Shown piece after piece: positions 1 through 51,333 of a stretch of DNA of 64,000 nt. Numbering within the stretch: position 1 is the stretch's first letter; each line of letters begins with the position of its first letter. Source of the stretch: a bacterium. Its GTDB lineage: Bacteria; Patescibacteriota; Minisyncoccia; Minisyncoccales; JANBVM01. Where the stretch lies: NCBI GenBank assembly GCA_030588745.1, contig JAUUXB010000002.1, positions 22,157 to 86,156 of the forward strand, written 5' to 3'. Position numbers and translations under genes: made by a program. The notes beneath the pieces are model-generated. The model ran no database searches and had not been told where the DNA came from. It saw nothing but the letters and a program-made list of their open reading frames with translations.

Positions 1-4
1 TGGG

Positions 5-715
5 TTATCTCACCTCACAAACATCAAAAAAAGGAGAAATAGCTTTTTGGATTTCTAAGAGATATTCTCTGGGATAAGGTCTTAAGTTTTCAAATTCTGG
101 ATTTATTGTTTTCTCCCCTTTGAAATTCTGTAAATAGTATCTTTTGGCTGGCTTTATCCAATGAACAATTTTCAAGATGTCTTTTTTTCCATGAAGGCCT
201 GGCACCACAGTTGTTCTGAATTCATAATCAATTCTGGATTTTTTTAAAATATCAATGCTTTTTTCAATCTTTTTTAAAATATTAGTTTTTAAAACTCCGG
301 ATATTCCAATAATCTGAAGGTATTTTTCTTTTGGAGCCTTAACATCCATTGCCACATAATCTATTAATTTTTTATCAATCAAATGTTTTAAGATTTTAGG
401 ATTTGAGCCATTGGTATCAAGTTTTATTAAATAACCTAACTTTTTAATCTTTCTAATAAAGCTAGGCAACCGTGCATTTATAGTCGGTTCGCCCCCGCAG
501 ACCACAACTGCCTCTAATAACTCTTTTCTTTGTTTTAAAAAAGAAAAAAAATCTTTATTTGAAATAATTGGCTGAAGCTTAATTTTTTTAGGCAGAACAA
601 GTTCTGATGAATAACAAAAACCACAGCGAAAATTACAGCCAATTAAAAAAACCGTGGCTGCTAAATGGCCAGGATAATCAATAAGAGTAAGTTTTTGAAG
701 ACCGCCAATCTTCAT
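5..715 (-). CDS. nrdG: Anaerobic ribonucleoside-triphosphate reductase activating protein (radical SAM)
   Basis: Radical SAM CxxxCxxC motif (GCNFRCGFCYSSEL), 236 aa, directly downstream of nrdD. Confidence 0.9.
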   Translation of the reverse strand: MKIGGLQKLTLIDYPGHLAATVFLIGCNFRCGFCYSSELVLPKKIKLQPIISNKDFFSFLKQRKELLEAVVVCGGEPTINARLPSFIRKIKKLGYLIKLDTNGSNPKILKHLIDKKLIDYVAMDVKAPKEKYLQIIGISGVLKTNILKKIEKSIDILKKSRIDYEFRTTVVPGLHGKKDILKIVHWIKPAKRYYLQNFKGEKTINPEFENLRPYPREYLLEIQKAISPFFDVCEVR

Positions 716-718
716 AAA

Positions 719-2857
719 TTAAGCGTCGGTTAATGATTGCTTTTTTAATTTAAATTCTTTTCTCTCTTTCCACTCACGCTTTTTGCCGTCATTCCATTGT
801 GACACGGGGCGAATGTAACCGACTATCCTGGAATAAACCTCGCATGGCTGCTTGATAATGCATTTTGGACACTGAAAATGTTCTCCTGATAAATAACCAT
901 GAGAAGGACAAATTGAAAAAGTAGGAGTTAGGGTGATATATGGCAAGTGAAAGTTCTCAAACACTTTTTTAATCAATGTCTTAACAGTAGAAACATCAGA
1001 GATATTTTCACCCAAAAACAGATGTAAAACAGTGCCGCCAGTATACTTGCACTGAATTTCATCCTGAAGCTTTAAAGCTTCAAAAGCGTCAGTAGTATAA
1101 TTAACCGGCAATTGGCTTGAATTAGTATAGTAAGGCGTTTTTTCTGTTCCAGCAGCAATAATATCAGGATATTGCTCTTTATCTTTTAAAGCCAAGCGAT
1201 AGGCAGTGCTCTCAGCTGGTGTGGCCTCAAGATTATAGATATTATTGGTTTCACTTTGGTATTTAACTAGTTTCTTCCTCATAAAATCCATTGTTTCTAA
1301 GGCAAATTTTCTTCCTTTTCGTGAAGTAATATCCGCACCAATGAAATTAAGCAAGGCCTCGTTCATTCCAACCAGTCCAATAGTTGCAAAATGATTAGCA
1401 TAATAAGCATTTCTCATTTTTTTAATACTTTCCAGATAATATTTTGAATAAGGATAAAGGCCTTTTGTAATATAGTTTTCCAAAACTTTTCTTTTAATTT
1501 CCAAACTTTCTTTTGCCAAATTCATTACTCTTTCTAGCCGCTTGAAAAAATCTTTTTTGGTTTTTGATAAATAGCCAATTCTGGAAAGATTGATGGTCAC
1601 CACCCCTATTGATCCTGTAAGCGCTCCTGCGCCAAATAATCCTCCTCCGCCACGATTATGAAGTTCTTTCAAATCTAACCGAAGCCTACAACACATACTT
1701 CTAACATCCTCTGGCTTCATTTCAGAATTAATATAATTAGCAAAATAATTAGTTCCATATTTTCCTGATGCCTTAAAAGCTAAATCATATGCAGGATCAT
1801 CCCAGGGAAAATCTTTTGTAATATTGATTGTTGGAATGGGAAAATGAAATGGTTTTCCGGTTTTATCTCCCTCAAGTATTATTTCATAAAATGCTTTGTT
1901 AAGGATCTTCATTTCTTCTTCAAATTCAGCATAAGTTTCTTTCTGGGGCTTGCCACCAATAATAACAGGCTGATTAGCAAAAGAAGGTGACGGTTTTAAA
2001 TCAAGAGTAATGTTACTAAAAGGACACTGAAATCCTACTCTTGTAGGAACAGCCATGTTGTAAAGAAATTCCTGAAATGATTGCTTAACCTGCTTGTAAT
2101 TTAAATTATCGTAACGGATAAACGGAGCAAGCAAGGTATCAAAATTAGAAATAGCAACAGCTCCTGCTACTTCACCTTGAACTGTGTATAAAAAGTTTAT
2201 TATCTGGCCCAGGGCAACTCTTAAGTGCTTTGCTGGTTTTGATTCTACTTTGCCTATTACTCCACCAAAACCTCTGATCAAAAGGTCATACAAATCCCAG
2301 CCAGAGCAATAAGTACCTAAAGTATCTAGATTATGAATGTGAAAATCCCCAGACCGATGAGCATCTCTCACTTCTTTGGAATAAACTTTATTGAGCCAAT
2401 ATCTTTTAATGATATATGAAACGCCGTAGCGATTCAGCCCCTGCAGAGAAAAAGCCATGTTAGCATTCTCCTGAACTTCCCAGTCAAGTTTCCCTAAATA
2501 TTTATCAATTCTATCCACTGCTTCTTCGCTAACTTTCACTGCCTCTCTTATTCTTCTGCGCTGTTCTCTGTAAAGAATGTAAGCTTTAGCAGTTTCAACC
2601 AAGCCTTCTAAAATTAAAACTTCTTCAACAATATCCTGAATCTGTTCAACATGAGGAATTTCATCTTTTTTAAAGCGTCTGTCTAATATTTTAATTACCT
2701 CTTGAGTTAATTTCTTTGACTTGACGCCATCACCTTGGCCAGTAGCAGTAATAGCTTTAAAAATTGCATTGGAAATTTTTAAACCATCAAAATCAGTTAT
2801 TGTCCCATCTCTTTTTTGAACCTTAGTAGTTTTACTTTTAACAGCTTGTTTAGTCAT
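719..2857 (-). CDS. nrdD: Anaerobic ribonucleoside-triphosphate reductase
   Basis: 712 aa; N-terminal ATP-cone-like region; C-terminal zinc site and glycyl-radical region (CPSHGYLSGEHFQCPKC ... RIVGYIRPVSQWNDGKKREW). Confidence 0.95.
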   Translation of the reverse strand: MTKQAVKSKTTKVQKRDGTITDFDGLKISNAIFKAITATGQGDGVKSKKLTQEVIKILDRRFKKDEIPHVEQIQDIVEEVLILEGLVETAKAYILYREQRRRIREAVKVSEEAVDRIDKYLGKLDWEVQENANMAFSLQGLNRYGVSYIIKRYWLNKVYSKEVRDAHRSGDFHIHNLDTLGTYCSGWDLYDLLIRGFGGVIGKVESKPAKHLRVALGQIINFLYTVQGEVAGAVAISNFDTLLAPFIRYDNLNYKQVKQSFQEFLYNMAVPTRVGFQCPFSNITLDLKPSPSFANQPVIIGGKPQKETYAEFEEEMKILNKAFYEIILEGDKTGKPFHFPIPTINITKDFPWDDPAYDLAFKASGKYGTNYFANYINSEMKPEDVRSMCCRLRLDLKELHNRGGGGLFGAGALTGSIGVVTINLSRIGYLSKTKKDFFKRLERVMNLAKESLEIKRKVLENYITKGLYPYSKYYLESIKKMRNAYYANHFATIGLVGMNEALLNFIGADITSRKGRKFALETMDFMRKKLVKYQSETNNIYNLEATPAESTAYRLALKDKEQYPDIIAAGTEKTPYYTNSSQLPVNYTTDAFEALKLQDEIQCKYTGGTVLHLFLGENISDVSTVKTLIKKVFENFHLPYITLTPTFSICPSHGYLSGEHFQCPKCIIKQPCEVYSRIVGYIRPVSQWNDGKKREWKERKEFKLKKQSLTDA

Positions 2858-2925
2858 AATAATTACATTTTACTTCAACAAAAAAAAACGGTCAAATATC
2901 CAGTCAATTCAGTCAAAATTTTAAC

Positions 2926-2934
2926 TTATCCACA
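2926..2934 (+). promoter_or_regulatory. Perfect DnaA-box-like 9-mer TTATCCACA in the ftsZ-nrdD intergenic gap
   Basis: Exact match to consensus TTATNCACA, about 70 bp upstream of the nrdD start. Confidence 0.4.
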
Positions 2935-2946
2935 GAGTTTAAAAAA

Positions 2947-3891
2947 CTAAAATCCTGTAACAATAACTGTTACTTTTATTTCTCCATTTCTTAGCTGTTC
3001 ATCCTGAACAGCACCAAAAACAACTTTTGCTTTTGGATTGATTTCTTTTGTAATTAGTTTGCCAATTTCCTCAATTTCAAACAAAGATATATCCTCACCA
3101 CCAGAAACATTAAATAAAACTCCTTTTGCACCTTTTGGCCTGATATCTAAAAGTGGAGAGCTTAAAGCAAGAGCTGTTGCCTCTAATGCTCTTTTTTCAC
3201 CTTTGGCTGTTCCCATGCCAAAGAGAACGCTCCCAGAATTTTTAAGAATTGATTTTACATCAGCAAAATCAATATTCACAATCCCTGGCAGCATAATCAA
3301 ATCAGAAATTCCTTTAACCGCTTCTCTTAAAACATCATCACAAAGCCAGAAAGCATTAAGAAGCGAAGTTGTAGGGTCTAAACAATGAAGTAATTTGTCA
3401 TTTTTAATCACTAAAAGCGCATCAACTTTTTGTTGTAATAGCTTTCTGCTATTTTCCGCAATTTTCCTCCTGTAAACTCCCTCAAAGGAAAAAGGTAAAG
3501 TGGTAATTGCTACTGTTAAAGCACCTGTTTTTTTAGCAATTTGAGCAATGATAGGGCTAGCACCACTACCAGTTCCACCTCCCAGTCCTCCTGTAATAAA
3601 AATCATGTCAGCGCCTTTTAATGACTCATAAATTTTATCTTTACTTTCTTTTGCTGCTAATTCACCAACCTGAGGTTTCATGCCTGTTCCTAAGCCCTTG
3701 GTTATTTTTTCTCCTATTCTTAATTTCACATCAGCCTGAATCTTTTTTAAGTCCTGATAATCAGTATTCATTGCAATTAATTCAATTCCTTTAATTCTTG
3801 ATTTTTTCATTCTTGATATGGCATTGCCACCTGAACCGCCAACTCCTACTACTTTAATATTTGTTGTTAATTTTTTAATCCTCTTTTTCAT
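2947..3891 (-). CDS. ftsZ: Cell division protein FtsZ, lacking a C-terminal tail
   Basis: GGTGSG tubulin signature (GGLGGGTGSGASPIIA), 314 aa; ends at the globular-domain boundary. Confidence 0.95.
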   Translation of the reverse strand: MKKRIKKLTTNIKVVGVGGSGGNAISRMKKSRIKGIELIAMNTDYQDLKKIQADVKLRIGEKITKGLGTGMKPQVGELAAKESKDKIYESLKGADMIFITGGLGGGTGSGASPIIAQIAKKTGALTVAITTLPFSFEGVYRRKIAENSRKLLQQKVDALLVIKNDKLLHCLDPTTSLLNAFWLCDDVLREAVKGISDLIMLPGIVNIDFADVKSILKNSGSVLFGMGTAKGEKRALEATALALSSPLLDIRPKGAKGVLFNVSGGEDISLFEIEEIGKLITKEINPKAKVVFGAVQDEQLRNGEIKVTVIVTGF

Positions 3892-5096
3892 GGAATAAAA
3901 ATTCTAAATATTTTTTTAATTTTAGAACCAAGCTTTTTCCCAAATCCAAAACCCTGTTCTTTTTCTTCCAAATCAGCACCTAAAAGAACCAAACCACAAG
4001 CAGTTGCCCAGCTTAAATCTCTTTCAATGCCTGTTATTCCTTGTGGTTTGCCTAAAAAACATGGGAGACAGAATTTCTTTTTTGCCAACTTAACAATTTT
4101 TGGCAATTTTGCTCCGCCTCCAATTAAAATCACTCCAGCTGGAAGCCGTTTTTCTTTTGATATTTTCTTAAGTTCCTCATTAATTTGTTCAAAAATTTCT
4201 GAAACCCTGATTGCAATAATTTTTGTTAAGAATTTTTGTGAAAAAATTAAAGGTTCTTCTTCCTCTATTACAACTTTCTTTTTAATATCTCTTCCGCTGA
4301 AAACACAGGAGCCGTACTTAATTTTAATTCTTTCTGCGCTGTCAATGTCAGTATATAATCCAACAGCAATATCTGAAGTAATATTGTCTGAACCTATGGG
4401 TATCACTGCCAGATGAATCAAACTCCCTTCTTCAAAAACAGCTAGATTGGTAACACCAGCTCCAATATCAACCAAAGCAACACCAAGCTCTTTCTGTTTT
4501 TCAGTTAATGATGACCGGGCTGCTGCCAGAGCAGAAGGCACTAAATCAAGTATTTCCAAATCAGAGTTTAAAATTGCCTGTCTTGTATTTTTAAGATATG
4601 GAGAAAATCCTCCTAAAGCCAAAACTTCTGTCTCTAATCTTACTCCTTCAAGACCAATGGGTTCTCTTATTCCTCTTTCTCCATCAATAATAAATTCTTT
4701 TGGTAAAATATCAAAAATTTCCTTGTTTGAAGGAAGGTTAATTGCCCGAGCTGCCTGCAATACTCTTTGGATGTCTTCTTCAGAAATTTTTCTATCAGCC
4801 CTGGAAACAGAAACTAATCCGTGGGAACAGGAAGAAAAAATATGACTTCCACTTAAGTTGACATAAACCGAATTAATTGGCCTGCCTAAGTCTTGAGAAA
4901 CTTTTGAAAAAACATTTTTTAATACATCTGATATTTTTTCTACGCTGACTACTGTTCCTTTTCTAATACCATCTGACTCTTCTTTAGTTGTTAAAACTGC
5001 CTCTATTACATTTTTCTTTGCGTCCTTTTTAGTAATTAAAACCTTTACGCTTGAAGACCCTATATCCAAACCGGTTATTATTTTTTTTCTTGCCAT
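3888..5096 (-). CDS. ftsA: Cell division protein FtsA
   Basis: GLDIGSSSVKVLI actin-like start, VDIGAGVTNLAVF; C-terminal amphipathic KKLGSKIKKIFRIFIP; overlaps ftsZ. Confidence 0.93.
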   Translation of the reverse strand: MARKKIITGLDIGSSSVKVLITKKDAKKNVIEAVLTTKEESDGIRKGTVVSVEKISDVLKNVFSKVSQDLGRPINSVYVNLSGSHIFSSCSHGLVSVSRADRKISEEDIQRVLQAARAINLPSNKEIFDILPKEFIIDGERGIREPIGLEGVRLETEVLALGGFSPYLKNTRQAILNSDLEILDLVPSALAAARSSLTEKQKELGVALVDIGAGVTNLAVFEEGSLIHLAVIPIGSDNITSDIAVGLYTDIDSAERIKIKYGSCVFSGRDIKKKVVIEEEEPLIFSQKFLTKIIAIRVSEIFEQINEELKKISKEKRLPAGVILIGGGAKLPKIVKLAKKKFCLPCFLGKPQGITGIERDLSWATACGLVLLGADLEEKEQGFGFGKKLGSKIKKIFRIFIP

Positions 5097-5103
5097 TTGA
5101 TTA

Positions 5104-5538
5104 TTAAAAGTATGGGAATAAATAATAATTTTCTTTGCCTTTCATTTCTTTTGCTTTTTGCTCTGACTTCTCGTGGCTATAACCTAAAAGGTGTAAAATC
5201 CCGTGAATAAGTGCTCTGGATAATTCTTTTTTAAATAAAAGGCCTAATTTTTTAGCATTTTTTTTGATAAATTGGGGGCAGATAACCACTTCACCTAAGA
5301 TATTTTCAAATTCTTTTATTTTCCCCATAAAATCTTTGGTTTCAGAAAAAGATAAAACATCAGTTGGTTTGTTTTTGTTTAAATACTTTTTGTTTAAACC
5401 CCTCATTTCTTTTTCTTTTATAAAAGCTACTGAAACAATATGTCTTCCTTTATTTTCACCTCTTAAAACAGCTTGGCTAACTTTTTTTAAAAATTTTTTA
5501 TCAAGAACAAAATCTGTTAGATTGTTAATCTCAATCAT
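5104..5538 (-). CDS. ybeY: Endoribonuclease YbeY (rRNA maturation)
   Basis: HGILHLLGYSHE zinc motif; PTDVLSF. Confidence 0.9.
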   Translation of the reverse strand: MIEINNLTDFVLDKKFLKKVSQAVLRGENKGRHIVSVAFIKEKEMRGLNKKYLNKNKPTDVLSFSETKDFMGKIKEFENILGEVVICPQFIKKNAKKLGLLFKKELSRALIHGILHLLGYSHEKSEQKAKEMKGKENYYLFPYF

Positions 5539-5540
5539 AA

Positions 5541-6035
5541 TCAGGAAAGCAAATCCTTAACAATTTTTGAAATTAAAGCTCCGCTTGCTTTACCTTTAAC
5601 TTTTGGCATGAGTCCTGACATCACTTTTCCCATATCCTTAATGCTTTCTGCTTTTGTTTCTTTGATAACCTCTTTTGCTAATTCTTTAATTTCTTTTTCT
5701 TCGAGTTGTTGAGGCATATATGTTTTTAAAACTTCAAGTTCTTGTTCTTCTTTTTTTACCAAGTCATCTCTTTTACCTTTTCTAAATTCAGCAATCGCTT
5801 CTTCTGATTTTTTTGTTTTTAATATAATAACATCCAAAATTTCCTCGTCAGTTAAAATACTTTTTTCTTCTAGTTCCTTATCGGTGAAATCTGGATTTTC
5901 TTTGCTCAGTTGATATCTTTTTTCCTTTTCTTTATTAAAAATATCAGTTTTCAATAGTCTTAAAACTGAAACTTCAATTTCTTTTTTTTGTTTTAAAGCA
6001 TTTTTGAAATCTGTTTCAAGTTTATCCTTAAGCAT
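5541..6035 (-). CDS. GatB/YqeY domain-containing protein
   Basis: Typical YqeY sequence (VLRLLKTDIFN ... YMPQQL ... DMGKVMSGLMPKVKGKASGALIS). Confidence 0.9.
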   Translation of the reverse strand: MLKDKLETDFKNALKQKKEIEVSVLRLLKTDIFNKEKEKRYQLSKENPDFTDKELEEKSILTDEEILDVIILKTKKSEEAIAEFRKGKRDDLVKKEEQELEVLKTYMPQQLEEKEIKELAKEVIKETKAESIKDMGKVMSGLMPKVKGKASGALISKIVKDLLS

Positions 6036-6068
6036 ACTGATTAAAAAATAAATAATAATTTTTACTAA

Positions 6069-6287
6069 TTATCTTTTTAAACCCAGCTTTTTCATTCTTT
6101 GATACTCCTTCCTCTTTTCTTCTCTCCTTAAAGCTGCTCTATTTTTGAGCTGGCGGGATTTTTTCCTTTGCTTATACTTTTTCTTTCTTGCTCTAATCAA
6201 AAGACCGCTTTGTTTAACTCTTTTGCTAAAGCGTCTTACCAAGCTTTGTGACGTTTCTCTTTCTCTTTTTGTTACTTCTAAAGCCAT
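6069..6287 (-). CDS. rpsU: 30S ribosomal protein S21
   Basis: Short, very basic S21-like protein (LVRRFSKRVKQSGLLIRARKKKY). Confidence 0.85.
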   Translation of the reverse strand: MALEVTKRERETSQSLVRRFSKRVKQSGLLIRARKKKYKQRKKSRQLKNRAALRREEKRKEYQRMKKLGLKR

Positions 6288-6311
6288 AATTTTGATTTAA
6301 TTGTTCAGTAT

Positions 6312-6668
6312 TTATGGTGTTTTTTGTTCATGCATTTTTTCTTCAGTTTGCCATCCACCCAAAACATGAAGGTGAATATGGTCTATCATTTGTCCTGCGC
6401 TTCTTCCAACATTAAATGCTAATTTATATCCTTGATCTTTAATTTTAAGTTTTTCTGCAACCTTTTTGGCAGTTAAAATCAAACCTCCAATTAATTCTTT
6501 GTCAGTTTCTTTTAAATCGTTTACTGAATTAATGTGTTTTTTGGGAATAATTAAAACATGGATTGGAGCTCTAGGATTTATATCCTTAAAAGCAATAAAT
6601 GTTTCATCTTTGTAAATCACTTCTGAATTCATTTCTTTATTTATAATTTTGCAAAATATACAATCCAT
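6312..6668 (-). CDS. HIT family protein
   Basis: IFCKIINKE start; HIHLHVLGGW histidine triad. Confidence 0.93.
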   Translation of the reverse strand: MDCIFCKIINKEMNSEVIYKDETFIAFKDINPRAPIHVLIIPKKHINSVNDLKETDKELIGGLILTAKKVAEKLKIKDQGYKLAFNVGRSAGQMIDHIHLHVLGGWQTEEKMHEQKTP

Positions 6669-6681
6669 AAAAAGTAATAAA

Positions 6682-7971
6682 TTATTTTTTAATCTTTTTC
6701 TTAATCTCGTTCACCACTTTAACTAAATCTACTTCCTGTTGTTTTCCTGTTTTCATTTCTCTTATAATAATTGAATTGGCTAAAGCTTCTTTTTGGCCAA
6801 ATATTAAACTGTATTGAACACCAATCTTATTTGCAATATTAAGTTGAACGCTTAAAGAATCACGCCCCAAAGAAGAGTAAAACGGTATCTTTGCTTTCCT
6901 GAACTCTTCTGCTAATTTTAAGGTCTTCCTTTTTGCTAAATTGCCAAGCTGAGCTAAGAATACTTTTGGCTTTGGTTTTTGAGCAGGTTTTAAGGCTCGC
7001 TCTTTCATTAAAAGTATTATTCTATCAATGCCTCCTGCTATTCCTACAGCTGGCGTTGGTTTACCACCTAAAAGTTTTACTAAATCATCATACCTGCCTC
7101 CGCCAGCCAAGGCAATAGTGGTTAATTCTGAAGAATCTTTCTTTTTTTCTTGAACGAAAAATTCAAAAACTGTGCGAGTATAATAATCTAAACCTCTAAC
7201 CAAATGAGGGTTTAAATTATAGGGCAGTTCAAGCTCGTCTAAAAACTCAAGAAATTCTTTAAAATGTTTTCGGCAATCAGAACAAAGATGATCAATTGTC
7301 TGAGGCGCTTCTGAAGATATTTTCTGACATTTTTCCTGTTTACAATCCAATATTCTTAAAGGGTTTTCTTTAACCTTTCTTTTACAATTAACACACAAAT
7401 TGCCAGCTCTTGACCTAAGATAGCTTACCAAAAGCTTTTTATAATAAGGCCTGCAACAGCTGGCACCAATACTATTTACCTCAATACCTATATTTTTGAT
7501 TTTAAGGTCTTTAAAAATACTATATGCAATCTGTACAATTTCAGCATCAATAGCTGAACTTTCTTCGCCTAAAATCTCCAAACCAAACTGCCAGAACTGA
7601 CGAAATCTTCCAGACTGGGGTTTTTCATGGCGAAAATAAGGTCCAGAATGCCAAAGCTTAACAGGTTTAGGTAGATTTTTCATGCCATGTTCTATATAGG
7701 CCCTAACAATCGGAGCAGTTCCTTCTGGTCTTAAAGCCAGGTAATTCCCGCCTTTTGTTCTTAAAGTGAATATTTCTTTTTTAACTATGTCTGTAGAAAG
7801 ACCTATCCCTTTAGAAAAAAGCTCCCGCTGTTCCAATATAGGAGTTTCTATTCTTTTGAAACTGTAAGAACCTGCAATATTTTCAACAACAGTATTAATT
7901 TTTTCATAATATCCATAATCATCTTCTAGGATATCATGCATTCCTGTTGGTGATTGAAATTTTAATCTCAT
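6682..7971 (-). CDS. hisS: Histidyl-tRNA synthetase
   Basis: Class II aaRS motifs; LVRGLDYYTRTVFEF; AGGGRYDDL. Confidence 0.95.
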   Translation of the reverse strand: MRLKFQSPTGMHDILEDDYGYYEKINTVVENIAGSYSFKRIETPILEQRELFSKGIGLSTDIVKKEIFTLRTKGGNYLALRPEGTAPIVRAYIEHGMKNLPKPVKLWHSGPYFRHEKPQSGRFRQFWQFGLEILGEESSAIDAEIVQIAYSIFKDLKIKNIGIEVNSIGASCCRPYYKKLLVSYLRSRAGNLCVNCKRKVKENPLRILDCKQEKCQKISSEAPQTIDHLCSDCRKHFKEFLEFLDELELPYNLNPHLVRGLDYYTRTVFEFFVQEKKKDSSELTTIALAGGGRYDDLVKLLGGKPTPAVGIAGGIDRIILLMKERALKPAQKPKPKVFLAQLGNLAKRKTLKLAEEFRKAKIPFYSSLGRDSLSVQLNIANKIGVQYSLIFGQKEALANSIIIREMKTGKQQEVDLVKVVNEIKKKIKK

Positions 7972-7985
7972 AAATTAGTTAAATT

Positions 7986-8528
7986 TTAGTAAGCTGGAGC
8001 TTCTATTTTAGCTAAGGCTGTAAATGGCCAGGCTCTTAAATAGACTTTGCCAACAATAAATTCTTTCAAAAGAGATCCCCAGCGTCTTGAATCAGAAGAA
8101 AAAGCCCTATTATCTCCTAATACAAAATATTCATTCTCTGACAATGAAGTTTTTATTTCCCCAGTTGTATAACTATCAGACAAATATTCTGATTCATCTA
8201 AAACAAACTTTTCACTTCCATTAACAATAATTATCTGGCCATTCTCAATAATTACTGTTTCACCTGGAAGTCCGATTATTCTTTTAATATAGCGTTGAGT
8301 AGGACTCTGAGGATATTTAAAAACAACCACCTCTCCTCTTTGAGGATCTCTGAACCTATAAGTAATCTCATCAACAATTAAATAATCACTATTAAAAAAA
8401 TTAGGCTCCATTGATATGCCTTGAACAAAAAAAGGTTGAAAAATAAAATAACGAACAGGAAACACTATAATAATCGCTAAAATCACTATTTTGATGGTTT
8501 CCAATAAAAAAGAGAGAAAGTCTTTCAT
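7986..8528 (-). CDS. lepB: Signal peptidase I
   Basis: GISMEPNF (Ser) and YIKRIIGLPGE (Lys) boxes; GDNRAFSSDSR; N-terminal TM. Confidence 0.93.
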   Translation of the reverse strand: MKDFLSFLLETIKIVILAIIIVFPVRYFIFQPFFVQGISMEPNFFNSDYLIVDEITYRFRDPQRGEVVVFKYPQSPTQRYIKRIIGLPGETVIIENGQIIIVNGSEKFVLDESEYLSDSYTTGEIKTSLSENEYFVLGDNRAFSSDSRRWGSLLKEFIVGKVYLRAWPFTALAKIEAPAY

Positions 8529-39255: not shown

Positions 39256-40923
39256 TTATTGAATTGTTCCATTAGTTATTGTTGGGTCATTTGGCAAGGA
39301 AGTATTAACAGCTGGAGCTGAGCTTTTAATTATGGTTTGGGTCCAGCTATCTTCAGCTGTAATCTGTACTTCATTAATTATATTAGGAATTTGACCTCTT
39401 TGATACACAGCAGGGGTAAATGAAATCTGAAAAGCAATTGTTAAAGGTGGTTCTGTAACTCCAACCCCTCTTGCCAAATCGCCTGCTAACCAGACAATTT
39501 CTCTTGATTGAGAATCAAAGGTAAATTTCTCAAATTCTGGTTCAGGAAACACTCTGCCAGTTAATTCTATGTTTTGAGGCAAAATTGCCTTTACTTTTGC
39601 ATTTTTAATATCTGAATAATGATTCCTTATATGCCACATAATTGTATAAGTGGTAGCTTCACCTACCTGCAACGGAACAGGACCAGAATTGCCAAAAACT
39701 TCATCCTGAAAATATGCTTTTTGGTCTATTCCAAGTTTTGAACCAATTTTTGTAACAAATTCTTCTTTAACCTGCCCAATAAATATTTTATTTCTTAAAA
39801 CAGGATTTTTAACACTGCCTAAATCATCTTTTAATTTTATGAAGAAATCAACCTTTCCTTCTTCTGTTGGAATTAAATATTGAAGGTCTGGAACTCTTCT
39901 CCAGTCAAAAACAATAGAGTTGTCGCCTGCTTGAAAACTTCCATAATCAGATTTTATTGTTTGAAAATCAAAAGCTTCTCCTTCTAACTGATTAATCATA
40001 AATAAATTACTTACACTATCTTCTCCCACATTTTTAAAGTAAATCTCATAATGGAGCCAATCACCAGGCACAGCAACATATTGAGGGTTTCCATTAATTT
40101 CCTGCCTGATGTAAAGAGAATGTCTAACCACTTCCACTCCTTTTGTAGCTTCTTTTAAAACAATGAACTCACCGTTCTTCCAAACACCCAACTTAGCTTT
40201 AAAAACTTTTGCTTCTCCTAAATCTCCAGAAAGCCTGCCTGAGATTTCAATTCTTCCTCCTTCTGATTTATTTAAAACAGGGATTTCCCATTCTGTCTGC
40301 TCAATTGATTTAGGAGTGGAGCTTATAAATTCAAAACCAAATGGATATTCAATCTGGCATCTCAAATTAGTTAAAAGATGTTCAATATTAGAGAAATAAT
40401 TAATCCGAAAAACAAAATCTTTGCCCGATGCAATCTTAGAAGGCAAATCAAAATCAAATACTAAAGGAGCTGACTTAATCTGGCTGGTAAAGTCAGAAGA
40501 TAGCTGGTATCTTGCTTTTAAATCTTTTGGCCTATAACTCAAAGATGCTTTAGTAATTTTAATATCTCCCTCTTTTCCCAAAATACTTATTTTAAATGAA
40601 AATGTCTTTTCTTCGCCCGGATAAATTGCTTCGCCCAATTCTTCTGGACCTAAAATCTGTCTTTCAAAAAACTCTCCGTCTTTTAAAGAATATTCAGGCG
40701 CCTCGAAAACAAGTTCTGGATTATCTAAACGAAACTCTCCTTTGTTTCTATACCTTACAACATACTCTACTTCCTCACCTAAAGTGATTTCAGATGGTCC
40801 AAAAATATCCAATCTTAAAAGTTCTTTTGAATAAACGTTTTTTTGCCAATTCCAAATAAACCAGGTTGTTCCTGCTAAAATAACTATAATAATGAAATAA
40901 TTTAAAATCTTTTTCATATTCAT
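39256..40923 (-). CDS. Surface protein with repeated DUF11-like beta domains, N-terminal TM
   Basis: 555 aa, TM anchor, repeated beta-sandwich-like segments (VVRYRNKGEFRLDNPELVFEAP; YEIYFKNVGEDSVSNLFMINQL). Confidence 0.7.
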   Translation of the reverse strand: MNMKKILNYFIIIVILAGTTWFIWNWQKNVYSKELLRLDIFGPSEITLGEEVEYVVRYRNKGEFRLDNPELVFEAPEYSLKDGEFFERQILGPEELGEAIYPGEEKTFSFKISILGKEGDIKITKASLSYRPKDLKARYQLSSDFTSQIKSAPLVFDFDLPSKIASGKDFVFRINYFSNIEHLLTNLRCQIEYPFGFEFISSTPKSIEQTEWEIPVLNKSEGGRIEISGRLSGDLGEAKVFKAKLGVWKNGEFIVLKEATKGVEVVRHSLYIRQEINGNPQYVAVPGDWLHYEIYFKNVGEDSVSNLFMINQLEGEAFDFQTIKSDYGSFQAGDNSIVFDWRRVPDLQYLIPTEEGKVDFFIKLKDDLGSVKNPVLRNKIFIGQVKEEFVTKIGSKLGIDQKAYFQDEVFGNSGPVPLQVGEATTYTIMWHIRNHYSDIKNAKVKAILPQNIELTGRVFPEPEFEKFTFDSQSREIVWLAGDLARGVGVTEPPLTIAFQISFTPAVYQRGQIPNIINEVQITAEDSWTQTIIKSSAPAVNTSLPNDPTITNGTIQ

Positions 40924-41669
40924 TAAATTTGTCCACTTATTTCTAGGATAAAAGATAAATAATGTTTTGAAAACTCCTCTAAATCTTTTAAGTCTTTATC
41001 ATTTATTTTTAATCTAGAAATTACCTCTAGTTTTTTCTCACTGATAAAACGTATTATTTTAATTGTTTCTGGACTCACTAATATATCTGATTTATCTTTT
41101 GAAAGGCAATTTTTACAAATTATACCTTGTTTTTTAGGGCTAAAATAAATACTCTCAGGTTTTAGTTTTTCTTCACAAGCCAAACAATTATATAAATCAG
41201 GCCTATAACCTAAAACAGATAAAAATTTCCAGAGAAAATAATAATAAATTATTCTTGTGTTTTTAAAACTTCTGTCATCTAATTTTCTAAAAACCTCTAA
41301 CAATAAATTCCAAATATTTTCATCTGACTCTTGCCCTTTAATTAAATCATCTAAAACCTGTCTAATGCTGTGGGTTATATCAAGTCTTTTTAAATCTTCC
41401 CTTAAATTTTTAAATTTTTCAATTGCGATTGCATCTGTTAATGTCTTGTAATTCTTTCCTTGGATAAATTCAATTTCTGATAAATAAAAAATCTCAATCC
41501 CTGATTTTAATTTTGAAGTCATCTTACGTATTGCTTTTGCTAAAATCTCTAATCTTCCAAAATCCTTTGTATAAACACTAAATAGCTGATCAGCTTCTTT
41601 TCTATCCACCTTTCTGAAAATAATACCTTGGGTCCTATAATGAACGAACATTCTATTTTTGAAGTCCAA
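40923..41669 (-). CDS. recO: DNA repair protein RecO
   Basis: YRTQGIIFRKVDRKEADQLFSVYTKDFGRLEILAKAIRK; CxxC zinc motif. Confidence 0.88.
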   Translation of the reverse strand: MDFKNRMFVHYRTQGIIFRKVDRKEADQLFSVYTKDFGRLEILAKAIRKMTSKLKSGIEIFYLSEIEFIQGKNYKTLTDAIAIEKFKNLREDLKRLDITHSIRQVLDDLIKGQESDENIWNLLLEVFRKLDDRSFKNTRIIYYYFLWKFLSVLGYRPDLYNCLACEEKLKPESIYFSPKKQGIICKNCLSKDKSDILVSPETIKIIRFISEKKLEVISRLKINDKDLKDLEEFSKHYLSFILEISGQI

Positions 41670-42108: not shown

Positions 42109-45100
42109 TTAGTTCCCGACCTTTTTAATAAATAATTGTATTTTTTGACCATTAATACTTAATTCTTTCCCTTTTTTTAATCCCTTAACCAAATCCAAAT
42201 CTTTTGCTTTTGTTTCTTTAATAATTATTTTTTCTTTTCTTAATAAAAGCTCGCTCATATCATGTTCTGCTTTAAACTGAATTATAATAATATCTTTTGG
42301 AGTCAGTTTTTGTTTTTTTCTTGCTTCTTGAATATTTCTAATCACCTCTCTTACTATTCCTTGTTCTTGTAACTGCTTGGTAATTTTTGTGTTAAGCTTT
42401 ATTTCTTTTCCAAAACCAACATTTAAAACATTAACTTCTTGCTTAATTAAATCCAAAAGCTCATTTTCATTTTTTAATTCTTTATCCTTAATAATTAACT
42501 CCTGTAATGCCTGTCTTACTTTAATTCCATGCTTTGCTCTTTCAGCTAAAGCTTGGGTAACAATTTCCCGAGTTTTTTCCATTTTCTTATTCAATTTTTC
42601 ATCAACAGATTTTTCAGTTGTTTTGGGCCAATCTTCTAAATGAACTGAATCTTTAATTTTAAACCCTGCTTTTTTAAAATCCTGATATATGTATTCAGTA
42701 AAAAAGGGAATAAAAGGAGCTGATAGCTTTATTGTCTGAAAAATCACAAAGCTCAAAGTTCCAGCAGCATCTTTTAATTCCATATCAGTTTTTGGCTGTT
42801 GGAATCTTTTTCTAGATCTTCTAATATACCATAAAGAAAGTTCATTCATAACAAATTTTTCAATGCTTCTAGCTGCACCAGTTATATCATAATTTTCTAG
42901 CAATTTAGTGGTTTTTACAATCAGTTCATTAAGTTTAGAAATAATCCATCTGTCTAAAATATGCTTGGAAGGTGGATTTTTAAAACTTAAGGATTCACCA
43001 TCAGTGTAAGTTTTTAAAAAAACATAGGAATTCCATAAAGGAAGAATGAATTTCCTTAGACTATTTTCTGGTTCTTTTTCTGAAAACAGCTTTGAATCAC
43101 CGGGCTGATTAACAGTGTAAAATGACCACCTTAAAGCATCAGTTGAATATTTTTCAATAATATGCCATGGATCAATTATATTTCCTTTTGATTTTGACAT
43201 TTTTTCACCTTTTTCATCCAAAATATGACCCAAAGAAACAACGTTTTTATAGGATGGTCCTTTTCCAAGCAAAGTAGAGACAGCAAGTAAAGTATAAAAC
43301 CAGCCTCTTGTTTGGTCTATTGCTTCACAGATATAATGAGCAGGAAATTGCTTGTTTTCATCAATAAGCTTTTTATTTTCAAAAGGATAATGATATTGAG
43401 CAAAAGGCATTGCTCCTGAATCAAACCAGCAATCTATTACTTCAGGAACTCTTTCCATTAAAGCCCCGCAACCAGAGCACTGAAATTTCACATTATCAAT
43501 ATAAGGTCTGTGTAAATCCATCTCTAGGTTTTTATTAAAAGGCAATACTCTAAATTCTATCTCTTCCAGTTTGCCTGTTTTCATTTTGTTTCCTTTTTTA
43601 CGCCAGTTTAAAATTTTTTCAAGAGACCAACCCTCTAAAGTTTTTTTAAAAACACCTAAAGGAAGTTCATGAGAAACAATTAAAATATTTTTTCCTTTAT
43701 ACTTTTTATCAATCTCTTTTAAAAAGTTGTACATTCTTTTTTTCAAATCTTTCACGCTTTCACCTCTGGGAGCTTTTGTTTCAGTCAAATTTCCTTTTTT
43801 TTCAAAATACTCCCAAACCAGCCCAGGTGCTTTACCATTAAAAGTACCAATATCAAATTCCCTTAATCTTTTGCTGAATTTAAGTGAAGCTTTAGTTGTT
43901 TCAGCTATAATTTCAGCAGTTTGTTTTGTTCGCAGTAAGTCTGACGAAAAAATTAAATCCAAATCCATTTTTGCCAATTTATCTCCTGCTTTTTTAGCTT
44001 CTTTTTTTCCTTTATCAGTTAAAGGGCAGTGAATTTTCTCAGGCCAGCATGAAGTAACTCCTTTTGCCTGTTTTATACTCTCACCATGACGAATTATAAA
44101 ATAATTGTTGTTGCTAAACTTCTGTTTTAACAAATCACTAATACCGCCAATTACCACCTGATTTTTACAATGAGCGCACTGCCAAACAGGAAGAGGAGTC
44201 CCCCAATACCTTTCTCTTGAAATTGCCCAGTCCTTAACCTCTCTTAACCATTCGCCAAATCTTCCTTTTTTAAGATAAGACGGATACCAATTTATTTTTG
44301 CATTATTAGCAATCAAATCCTTTTTAACTTTTGTCATTTCTATAAACCAGCTTTTTTTTGCGTAATAAAGAAGCGGTGTTTTGCATCTCCAGCAAAATGG
44401 ATAATCATGTTCATACAATTCTTGCTTGAACAACAACCCTCTTTCTTTTAAATCCTCAATTATTAAAGGGTCAGCTTCTTTAAAATACATTCTTGCCCAT
44501 TTTTCAACATTTAATCTAAACCTCCCTTCATCATCAATGTTTAATAAAATTGGCAGTTTATTCTTTCTTCCAACCTCCATATCATCTATTCCATAAGCAG
44601 GGGCAATGTGAACAAGACCTGTTCCTTCGTCCAGAGAAACAAAATCTCCTCCAATAACTTTGTAGGCATTTCTTGAAACCTCATCTTCTGCTGGATATAG
44701 GGCTTCGTATCTTAAATTAAACAAATCTTTTCCTTTGAATTCACCAACAATTTCACCCTTAAGGTCCAAATTCTTAATTCTTTCTTTTGCTAATATTAAA
44801 TACTCATCATTAACTTTAACTTTTGCATAAACCAATTTAGGATTTACTGCTACAGCTACATTACCAGGCAATGTCCAGGGAGTAGTTGTCCATACCAAAA
44901 AAGAAGTATTTTTAAAATTAGGGCTAATAATCTTGAATTTAATAAAAACTGATGGTTCTTTTATTTTTTTATACCCCTGAGCCACCTCATGGCTTGAAAG
45001 AGGAGTTCCACACCTAGGACAATATGGAACAACTTTAAAATCTTGAATCAAAAGTTTCTTTTGCCAGATTTGCTTTAATATCCACCACAATGATTCAACA

Positions 45101-45546
45101 TACTCAGAATTATAGGTGATATAAGGATTATCTATATCCACCCAATAACCAATTTTTTCTGTTAAATCTACCCAGGCCTTTGTAAAATTCCAGACAGATA
45201 TTTTGCATTTTTTATTAAATTTAGAAATACCATATTTTTCAATATCTTTTTTTGATTTTAAGCCAAGCTTTTTTTCAATCTGAAGCTCAACTGGCAAACC
45301 ATGTGTATCCCAACCACCTTTTCTTAAAACCCTAAAACCCTTCATTGTTTTATATCTACAAATTATATCTTTAAAAACCCTGGCTAAAACATGATGAAGT
45401 CCTGGAGGAGCATTAGCAGTAGGAGGACCTTCATAAAACACAAAATCACGAGCTTTAGCTCGTTGTTGTATGCTTTTTTCAAATATCTTTTTATCTTTCC
45501 AGAACTTTAAAACTTTTACTTGCTTTTTAGGTAAGTCTAGTTTCAT
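42109..45546 (-). CDS. ileS: Isoleucyl-tRNA synthetase with inserted histidine-phosphatase domain
   Basis: YEGPPTANAPPGLHHVLAR (HIGH-like), GEKMSKSKGN; insert IIRHGESIKQAKG...SSDLLRTKQTAEII...NILIVSHELPLG at about 43540-44115. Confidence 0.96.
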   Translation of the reverse strand: MKLDLPKKQVKVLKFWKDKKIFEKSIQQRAKARDFVFYEGPPTANAPPGLHHVLARVFKDIICRYKTMKGFRVLRKGGWDTHGLPVELQIEKKLGLKSKKDIEKYGISKFNKKCKISVWNFTKAWVDLTEKIGYWVDIDNPYITYNSEYVESLWWILKQIWQKKLLIQDFKVVPYCPRCGTPLSSHEVAQGYKKIKEPSVFIKFKIISPNFKNTSFLVWTTTPWTLPGNVAVAVNPKLVYAKVKVNDEYLILAKERIKNLDLKGEIVGEFKGKDLFNLRYEALYPAEDEVSRNAYKVIGGDFVSLDEGTGLVHIAPAYGIDDMEVGRKNKLPILLNIDDEGRFRLNVEKWARMYFKEADPLIIEDLKERGLLFKQELYEHDYPFCWRCKTPLLYYAKKSWFIEMTKVKKDLIANNAKINWYPSYLKKGRFGEWLREVKDWAISRERYWGTPLPVWQCAHCKNQVVIGGISDLLKQKFSNNNYFIIRHGESIKQAKGVTSCWPEKIHCPLTDKGKKEAKKAGDKLAKMDLDLIFSSDLLRTKQTAEIIAETTKASLKFSKRLREFDIGTFNGKAPGLVWEYFEKKGNLTETKAPRGESVKDLKKRMYNFLKEIDKKYKGKNILIVSHELPLGVFKKTLEGWSLEKILNWRKKGNKMKTGKLEEIEFRVLPFNKNLEMDLHRPYIDNVKFQCSGCGALMERVPEVIDCWFDSGAMPFAQYHYPFENKKLIDENKQFPAHYICEAIDQTRGWFYTLLAVSTLLGKGPSYKNVVSLGHILDEKGEKMSKSKGNIIDPWHIIEKYSTDALRWSFYTVNQPGDSKLFSEKEPENSLRKFILPLWNSYVFLKTYTDGESLSFKNPPSKHILDRWIISKLNELIVKTTKLLENYDITGAARSIEKFVMNELSLWYIRRSRKRFQQPKTDMELKDAAGTLSFVIFQTIKLSAPFIPFFTEYIYQDFKKAGFKIKDSVHLEDWPKTTEKSVDEKLNKKMEKTREIVTQALAERAKHGIKVRQALQELIIKDKELKNENELLDLIKQEVNVLNVGFGKEIKLNTKITKQLQEQGIVREVIRNIQEARKKQKLTPKDIIIIQFKAEHDMSELLLRKEKIIIKETKAKDLDLVKGLKKGKELSINGQKIQLFIKKVGN

Positions 45547-45636: not shown

Positions 45637-47220
45637 TTACATTTTTTCAGGAGCCAAAATTGCCATTAAGTCAAAGGTTTCTTTAAGCACAGTTTTAGTT
45701 GCCAAAATTAAAGCTATTCTAGCCTGCTGTAACTTTTCATCCTCAGCCAAAACCCTGCAGTCTTTATAGAATTTATGGAAAACAGTAGCTAAATCAATCA
45801 TGTATTGAGGCAGTCTTTGAACTTGATAATCATTGGCTGTGTCTTCAATTATTTCTGGAAATTTAACAAGTTCTTTTATTAATTTAATTTCAGAAGAATG
45901 TTTTAGCAAAGAAAAATCAGGTCTTGTTTTTTTTGCTTTTGTTTTTCTTAAAATACTGCAGATTCTTGCATAAGCATATTGAACATAATAAACCGGATTT
46001 TTCTCTGATTGCTCTTTGGCTAAATCTAAATCGAAATTTAAATGAGTATCTGCTGATCTTGTTAAAAAAAAGAATCTAACAACGTCTTTGCCCACCATAT
46101 CAATTAAATCATCCATTGTTACATAACGGCCTGCTCTTTTTGACATTTTTAATTTCTTTTGTTTCTCAAAAAGGGTGACGAATTGCAGAAGAACAATATC
46201 AAGTTTCCCCTTATAACCAAGAGCCTCAACAACTGCCTGAAGACCAGCTACATCTCCATAATGGTCGGCTCCCCAAATATTAATCACTTTGTCAAACTTT
46301 TTGTCTTTAAATTTATACTCATGAAGAGCCGTATCTCCTGCCAAATATGTTTTCCATTTATTTGATTTTACTATTACTCTATCTCTATCATCACCATATT
46401 GTTTTGATTTAAACCATAAAGCTCCTTCTTTTTCGTATAAAAAGCCTTTTTTCTTTAATTTATCTATTACCTTATCAACTAATCCAGACTTATGAAAATT
46501 TGTTTCTGAAATCCATTCATCATATTTAATACTCATCTTATCAGTGGTTTTTTTAATCATTTCTTTAATAATAATCTTCGCTGCCTCTTCCCCTGCCTTA
46601 TATACATCTTTGCTTTTAATTCTTTTGTTTAAATCATCAATATATGCTCCTTTGTATTTTGCTTCTTTGTCTTTTAAAACAGAGTGTCCTAAAGTCATAA
46701 TCTGCATTCCATAATCATTTATATAATAAGCTTTTTCTGTCTTGTAACCGGCTTTTTTTAAAACATTTGCCAAAACATCACCAAATGGCCCACCTCTGGC
46801 GTTACCAACTGTTAAAGGACCTGTTGGGTTTGCAGAAATAAACTCAACCTGAACTTTTTTATTTTTCCCAATATTTAATTGACCAAATTTATCTTTTTGT
46901 TTAAGAATTTTATCAACTTGTTCTTGGAGATATTTTTCTGAAATGAAAAAATTGATAAAGCCCGGTTTTACTATCTTAATTCTTTCAAATAAACTTGATA
47001 TTTTAGCCTTGAAATTCTCAGTTAACAATTCTGCTATTTCCATTGGATCTTTCTTTGTTTTTCTTGCAATTATCATTGCAATATTAGTTGAATAATCTCC
47101 ATGAATCTTTTTTTCAGGATATTCAACTTTAATTTCAGCAATATCAAAATCAATAAGCCCCTTTTTCTGAAGCTTATTTATTGATTCTTGTATCAGGTTT
47201 TTTATTTCTTGTTTAATCAT
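45637..47220 (-). CDS. argS: Arginyl-tRNA synthetase
   Basis: VEFISANPTGPLTVGNARGG; class Ia aaRS. Confidence 0.96.
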   Translation of the reverse strand: MIKQEIKNLIQESINKLQKKGLIDFDIAEIKVEYPEKKIHGDYSTNIAMIIARKTKKDPMEIAELLTENFKAKISSLFERIKIVKPGFINFFISEKYLQEQVDKILKQKDKFGQLNIGKNKKVQVEFISANPTGPLTVGNARGGPFGDVLANVLKKAGYKTEKAYYINDYGMQIMTLGHSVLKDKEAKYKGAYIDDLNKRIKSKDVYKAGEEAAKIIIKEMIKKTTDKMSIKYDEWISETNFHKSGLVDKVIDKLKKKGFLYEKEGALWFKSKQYGDDRDRVIVKSNKWKTYLAGDTALHEYKFKDKKFDKVINIWGADHYGDVAGLQAVVEALGYKGKLDIVLLQFVTLFEKQKKLKMSKRAGRYVTMDDLIDMVGKDVVRFFFLTRSADTHLNFDLDLAKEQSEKNPVYYVQYAYARICSILRKTKAKKTRPDFSLLKHSSEIKLIKELVKFPEIIEDTANDYQVQRLPQYMIDLATVFHKFYKDCRVLAEDEKLQQARIALILATKTVLKETFDLMAILAPEKM

Positions 47221-50910: not shown

Positions 50911-51333
50911 CTACAGTTTATTACTAACAGTAAAATCATTAGCTTCTTTTAAGACTCTTTTGGCATTTTCAAATGTTAACTGCTCTATGGCTTTATCATA
51001 AGAAAGCCATTTAAAATCAACATGCTCATAAGAAAGTTTAATTTCTTTTGTCTTGGTTTCAGCTAGGAAAAATATTACTGTTTTAAAAATTGTTTTATCT
51101 TGTTTTTTAAAAAAATACTCTATTTTTTCTTTAAACTCTCCAATAAATTTTAAATCATCAATCCCAGTTTCTTCTTTAGCCTCTCTTGTGACTGTTTGTC
51201 TTAACTCTTCATTTTTTTCAATCTTGCCTTTAACAAAATCCCAGTGCCCTAATTCATAATGTAAAACAAGGTAATAAATATTACCTTTGTCTTTTCTAAA
51301 GATTACTACCCCAGCTGATTTTTCTGTTGGCAC
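50911..51333 (-). CDS. NUDIX hydrolase
   Basis: GKIEKNEELRQTVTREAKEETGI Nudix box. Confidence 0.93.
   Translation of the reverse strand: MPTEKSAGVVIFRKDKGNIYYLVLHYELGHWDFVKGKIEKNEELRQTVTREAKEETGIDDLKFIGEFKEKIEYFFKKQDKTIFKTVIFFLAETKTKEIKLSYEHVDFKWLSYDKAIEQLTFENAKRVLKEANDFTVSNKL

Follow-up and report, generated by a model that had tools for sequence, protein, structure and literature searches.

A histidine-phosphatase domain within the isoleucyl-tRNA synthetase of a patescibacterium and across most of its class

What is a phosphatase doing inside an isoleucyl-tRNA synthetase (IleRS)? The question is raised by the ileS gene of a Minisyncoccales bacterium (assembly GCA_030588745.1), which occupies positions 42109–45546 of the window, i.e., the 64,000-nucleotide stretch of contig JAUUXB010000002.1 that was analysed, on the minus strand (as do all features given below by their window positions). 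Its open reading frame together with Pfam and NCBIfam models identify the product as a composite isoleucyl-tRNA synthetase / histidine phosphatase of 1145 amino acids. A preliminary description of this DNA had proposed that a complete histidine-phosphatase domain lies within the synthetase, and profile searches, conservation over dozens of genomes, and fold prediction all bear this out. The frame also runs on continuously over the junctions as described there, forming one 1145-aa ORF that is open throughout with no stop at either end of the insert. Misassembly or a sequencing artefact has a practically negligible probability and was rejected because dozens of independent genomes share these junctions and most of the class has the insert at this very site.

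Pfam resolves the protein into tRNA-synt_1 in two pieces flanking His_Phos_1, followed by Anticodon_1, and the whole protein passes the equivalog cut-off of the NCBIfam ileS model TIGR00392 (909.3 versus 621.4 bits). It is the sole IleRS of the genome (0.63 Mb in 30 contigs), whose other IleRS-type matches are weaker paralogous synthetases, and isoleucylation of tRNA-Ile is a putative function of the fused protein in a genome that holds no second IleRS. One of the weaker matches, on contig C28, reads as the valyl-tRNA synthetase (ValRS) of this organism; this protein (L016) carries no phosphatase and has apparently lost the zinc-knuckle hairpin (RQIWWGHKVPIKSSDDVLDTWFSS). Regarding the class I signature motifs, KMSKS is present as previously claimed (residues 782–786, 43189–43203, placed by alignment to Thermus IleRS 1ile), while the motif that had been called HIGH-like is more precisely GLHH (residues 49–52, 45391–45402), a swapped form of the signature that replaces HIGH. 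Swapped GXHH signatures are present in some type-2 IleRSs, in which they are an active variant and confer mupirocin hyper-resistance (PMC10485003). GXHH is present in about 40 of the fused IleRSs that we examined, and the fusion is found both in IleRSs with this signature and in those with HXGH. Two cysteine pairs of the Zn knuckle can be recognized in the sequence, C457-x-x-C460 (44167–44178) and C690-x-x-C693 (43468–43479).

The loop that joins these two pairs belongs to the catalytic half of IleRS, following the editing domain and preceding KMSKS, and is where the histidine-phosphatase module resides (residues 478–664, 43555–44115), flanked by VIGGISDLLKQKF and an MDLHRPYID segment of the LDLHRPYID type; profile, homologue ends, and predicted fold support this placement. 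The Pfam search that the preliminary description had suggested as a check returned His_Phos_1 (PF00300, branch 1) at residues 483–649 between the two tRNA-synt_1 pieces, with an E-value of 1.3e-34 and a score of 120 against a cut-off of 21.7 bits. Sequence matches to PDB chains stop at residue 473 and restart at residue 676, equivalent to residues 477 and 488 of Thermus IleRS 1ile, and there are thus about 200 residues in the fused IleRS where 1ile has about 10. Of the range originally given for the insert (43540–44115, residues 478–669), the start holds, while the end of the module is nearer to residue 664. This end is judged from the termini of stand-alone homologues, which begin approximately where the insert begins and finish at the motif GELRKL, and the module is therefore taken to span residues 478 to ca. 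664.

The catalytic residues expected of a histidine phosphatase are in place. The arginine and histidine of the RHG motif (residues 486–488, 44083–44091), with His487 as the expected nucleophile, are found in 70 of 70 fused copies, and so are Arg539, the second phosphate-binding arginine (43930–43932), and His626, the second catalytic histidine (43669–43671), in line with the earlier statement that both catalytic histidines are kept. The expected general acid, Glu563 (43858–43860), is E or D in 68 of the 70 (97%), and the stand-alone homologues likewise retain the catalytic residues R-H, R, E/D, and H. Comparison with the copy from another genome of the same genus gave 61% identity and a dN/dS of about 0.25 for the insert versus 82% and 77% identity and dN/dS values of 0.14 and 0.12 for the two IleRS halves; the insert is under purifying selection. 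When predicted alone, it forms a histidine-phosphatase alpha/beta fold (pLDDT 78, pTM 0.79), as would be expected of a domain that folds autonomously, and the top PDB matches of this model include PspA (TM 0.68), PhoE (1h2e, TM 0.73), and phosphoglycerate mutases. A full-length prediction yielded a good synthetase body and a score below 50 for the insert because the underlying alignment contained just two other phosphatase sequences.

Profile comparison places PhoE/YhfR nearest among solved chains, and the closest solved relatives of the insert are mostly small-molecule phosphatases. The insert shares its fold, the R-H-R-E-H set, and a module size of ca. 170–190 aa with PF00300 phosphatases of the PhoE/YhfR, PspA, and CobC types, but it differs from them in being embedded in a synthetase and in passing no NCBIfam equivalog cut-off for a characterised phosphatase subfamily. 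Scores remained below those required for the alpha-ribazole phosphatase CobC (TIGR03162; 88.5 versus 162.9 bits) and the phosphoserine phosphatase PspA (NF045917; 71.3 versus 350 bits), and a substrate can therefore not be transferred from a relative. The subfamily has marks of its own, i.e., W-P-E before a PLT/LT motif, HGDPLW around the last histidine, and GELRKL at the end.

A survey of related genomes for the same junctions, another of the proposed checks, revealed that the insertion recurs at one site in most of the class. The same fusion is encoded by 34 of 60 genomes of the order, ca. 123 of 191 genomes of the class (read from a table), and at least 56 of 381 genomes across the phylum, and none of 149 genomes in a Bacteroidota control sample has the fused form. 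Its insertion site is identical in all lineages with locatable flanking motifs, and the Zn loop differs between lineages in length and composition. Four of the 60 genomes of the order encode no PF00300 protein at all, which implies that the function can be lost and is not essential everywhere. Histidine phosphatases also turned up in other contexts: as a separate second gene 330 nt upstream of a phosphatase-fused ileS (G130, L117 10624–11211, minus strand), end to end with a family-2 glycosyltransferase in a 577-aa protein (G026, L183 2784–4517, plus strand), and, following an ART-PolyVal ADP-ribosyltransferase, in a phage polyvalent protein of more than 2800 aa on an IMG/VR contig (L135, frame 2–8440).

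Genomes of the order without the fusion show how closely this phosphatase is associated with ileS. A stand-alone phosphatase of the insert's kind is encoded by 18 of these 26 genomes, and in 14 of the 18 its gene immediately precedes ileS in the same orientation, with a spacing of -11 to +49 nt; the probability of such adjacency by chance is ca. 6e-32 if 600 genes are assumed. Gene-order comparison identified argS (45637–47220) as the conserved upstream neighbour, with the phosphatase gene of unfused relatives located between argS and ileS, and recO (40923–41669) as the conserved downstream neighbour. Fused and unfused genomes have in common a block composed of argS, the phosphatase gene where it is separate, ileS, a small ORF, recO, a protein of ca. 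555 aa, and a class II synthetase. The conserved block around argS–ileS in this order also includes a Nudix protein (50911–51333) whose closest solved structures are asymmetrical Ap4A hydrolases. In quick trees, eight of the unfused IleRSs fall into a separate deep clade, yet most of their phosphatases are placed among the fused ones; for one pair of genomes (G017 and G018), the phosphatase distance is 0.52 versus an IleRS distance of 1.89. The simplest account of these sequence comparisons would be that ileS was replaced in place with the phosphatase being retained. These trees have many weak forks and require ca. 14 changes for IleRS and ca. 10 for the phosphatase, a result that fits repeated gain as well as gain followed by losses.

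Four genomes of the class (G279, G628, G711, and G720) encode a phosphatase in ValRS, inserted between the corresponding cysteine pairs (loci L154/L156 in G279, L158 in G628, L157 in G711, and L159 in G720), and two of them, G279 and G628, have one in IleRS as well. The ValRS phosphatases cluster with the second phosphatase of double-insert IleRSs and not with the main IleRS insert, i.e., they belong to a different subfamily, so the joining of phosphatase and synthetase probably happened at least twice. All long-ORF phosphatase matches that we examined in the class were IleRS or ValRS. The double-insert IleRSs themselves are ca. 1430–1550 aa long and bear two tandem phosphatases of two subfamilies in the same loop (L110, L111, L136–L142, and L144; family f124), and another IleRS (G425, L109) has a second phosphatase copy elsewhere, at residues 888–1056. 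A 1538-aa IleRS encoded by G337 (L112 6659–11275, plus strand) contains a serine hydrolase (residues 259–393) and a Nudix domain (residues 462–589) in two loops of the editing region besides a phosphatase in the zinc-knuckle loop. Histidine-phosphatase-like domains were furthermore observed in DPANN archaea, in the N-terminal part of FtsY-like SRP receptors (L176, L177, L178, L179, L180, and L181), one of which (L179) has an additional serine-hydrolase domain. Their motif is mostly FVHG, with the arginine of RHG lost, and the long-frame phosphatase matches examined in the sampled DPANN phylum were FtsY-like, not IleRS.

What might a synthetase gain from an insert with a shared site, invariant catalytic residues, recurrent linkage to ileS, and a parallel in ValRS? 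We favour, with a probability of roughly 45%, a two-enzyme IleRS in which the phosphatase removes a small phosphoester with a link to the ileS locus. The IleRS body is the cell's only isoleucyl-tRNA synthetase, and the insert would be an autonomously folding, complete histidine phosphatase of a PhoE/CobC-like type, with His487 as nucleophile, a phosphate pocket formed by Arg486, Arg539, and His626, and Glu563 as the acid. This phosphatase would hydrolyse a small phosphoester, most likely a phosphorylated small molecule, perhaps of the nucleotide type, whose turnover is of use alongside IleRS. It would itself take no part in aminoacylation or editing. We infer catalytic activity, the kind of substrate, and functional coupling: catalytic residues that are strictly conserved whether the phosphatase is fused or stands alone argue for catalysis, and the survival of the linkage through a replacement of IleRS points to a benefit of having phosphatase and IleRS together. 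That the substrate is of the nucleotide type is a guess, with only the Ap4A-hydrolase-like Nudix protein in the gene block and the Nudix domain inside one IleRS as pointers. The preliminary description had offered, as speculation, an adenylate, a ppGpp-like molecule, or a sugar phosphate as the target, or else control of charging. The IleRS of G337 with its three hydrolase domains counts against the two-enzyme reading in that it fits loops that simply tolerate insertions. So does a related domain of mycobacterial MutT1, in which RHG is retained but an H-to-A exchange cost no measured activity (PMC11784022). A bolder version, which we regard as rather unlikely, would have the phosphatase physically coupled to the aminoacylation centre and removing a phosphorylated molecule that either is a by-product of branched-chain aminoacylation or inhibits it, an arrangement that would have arisen more than once and led to class-wide composite synthetases.

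Nearly as likely as the two-enzyme reading with an ileS-linked phosphoester is that the insert is an active housekeeping phosphatase with no tie to translation, a passenger that entered an insertion-tolerant loop of its neighbour gene and, the genome being compact and this gene essential, is steadily co-expressed. Stand-alone copies occupy just this locus between argS and ileS, and a Zn loop of variable length and composition, three different hydrolase domains in three loops of the G337 IleRS, and the histidine-phosphatase-like domain in DPANN FtsY all speak for such a passenger. Nevertheless, it would not by itself lead one to expect that the linkage outlasts a change of IleRS lineage, that ValRS, a close paralogue, acquired a phosphatase of a separate subfamily at this site, or that the long phosphatase-containing ORFs examined in the class encode these two synthetases. 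The location between editing domain and KMSKS would suit a regulatory phosphatase that acts on a phosphoprotein or phosphohistidine, or one that senses a phosphometabolite and tunes charging, and phosphohistidine proteins can indeed be substrates of histidine phosphatases, e.g., Ndk for SixA (PMC12934123). This role is improbable given that many relatives have the stand-alone form without physical fusion, that no kinase or partner was identified, and that the solved relatives closest to the insert act mostly on small molecules.

Two further possibilities have clearly lower probabilities. A purely structural or binding role of the insert would have precedents in the C-terminal RHG domain of MutT1, which supports the domain it is joined to but showed no measured catalysis itself (PMC11784022), and in the DPANN FtsY inserts that lack the arginine of RHG, but it is hard to reconcile with R-H-R-H being invariant and the acid 97% conserved among 70 fused copies, with stand-alone homologues alike, and we consider it very improbable. 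Even less credible is that the insert serves as the cell's phosphoglycerate mutase, though the 2,3-BPG-dependent enzyme (dPGM) belongs to the same superfamily and the insert is the only PF00300 protein of this genome. A PF01676 protein of ca. 400 aa, the size of an archaeal-type phosphoglycerate mutase, is encoded in the genome, relatives without PF01676 mostly carry an additional separate split match of 222–253 aa that is typical of dPGM, and dPGM models score far below their cut-offs (80.6 versus 225 and 42.9 versus 81.7 bits). The idea of a missing phosphoglycerate mutase was hence rejected, with PF01676 or separate dPGM-like genes covering most relatives.

Aminoacyl-tRNA synthetases with an added enzyme domain were already known, and what is new here is a lineage-wide, recurrent insertion of a phosphatase in IleRS. 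The fused protein shares the synthetase body, editing domain, and KMSKS with type-2 IleRSs (Priestia megaterium 8c8v/8c8w; Thermus 1ile) and GXHH with some of them, but its Zn-knuckle loop holds a phosphatase where 1ile has a short linker. IleRSs with an N-acetyltransferase domain (NCBIfam NF040702) similarly combine the synthetase with an extra enzyme domain, though a different one; our protein falls far short of the cut-off of this model (326.6 versus 1999 bits) and no GNAT domain was found in it. Mycobacterial MutT1 (Nudix and RHG) and bifunctional RNase H/acid phosphatase proteins (PRK07238) resemble the fused IleRS in joining a histidine-phosphatase-type domain to an enzyme of nucleotides or nucleic acids, but their domains are arranged end to end and the partner is no synthetase, whereas the domain is inserted in the fused IleRS. 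Our search of the open literature for the fusion itself and for unusual aminoacyl-tRNA synthetase domains in this group found no description of an IleRS–phosphatase fusion, and no account of any bacterial class in which most members have a metabolic phosphatase embedded in the catalytic half of an essential synthetase.

With fused and unfused forms at one locus, a phosphatase kept when the synthetase lineage changed, and a second subfamily in ValRS, these ultra-small bacteria provide a strong natural experiment. It offers direct access to a patescibacterial function overlooked by annotation, in which the gene is called simply ileS. If the phosphatase were indeed coupled to the aminoacylation centre, it would represent a new, repeatedly selected step around tRNA charging that involves two phosphatase subfamilies as well as both IleRS and ValRS. 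More generally, the locus allows one to test whether coupling, or co-expression alone, is the reason for placing enzymes inside essential proteins in tiny genomes.
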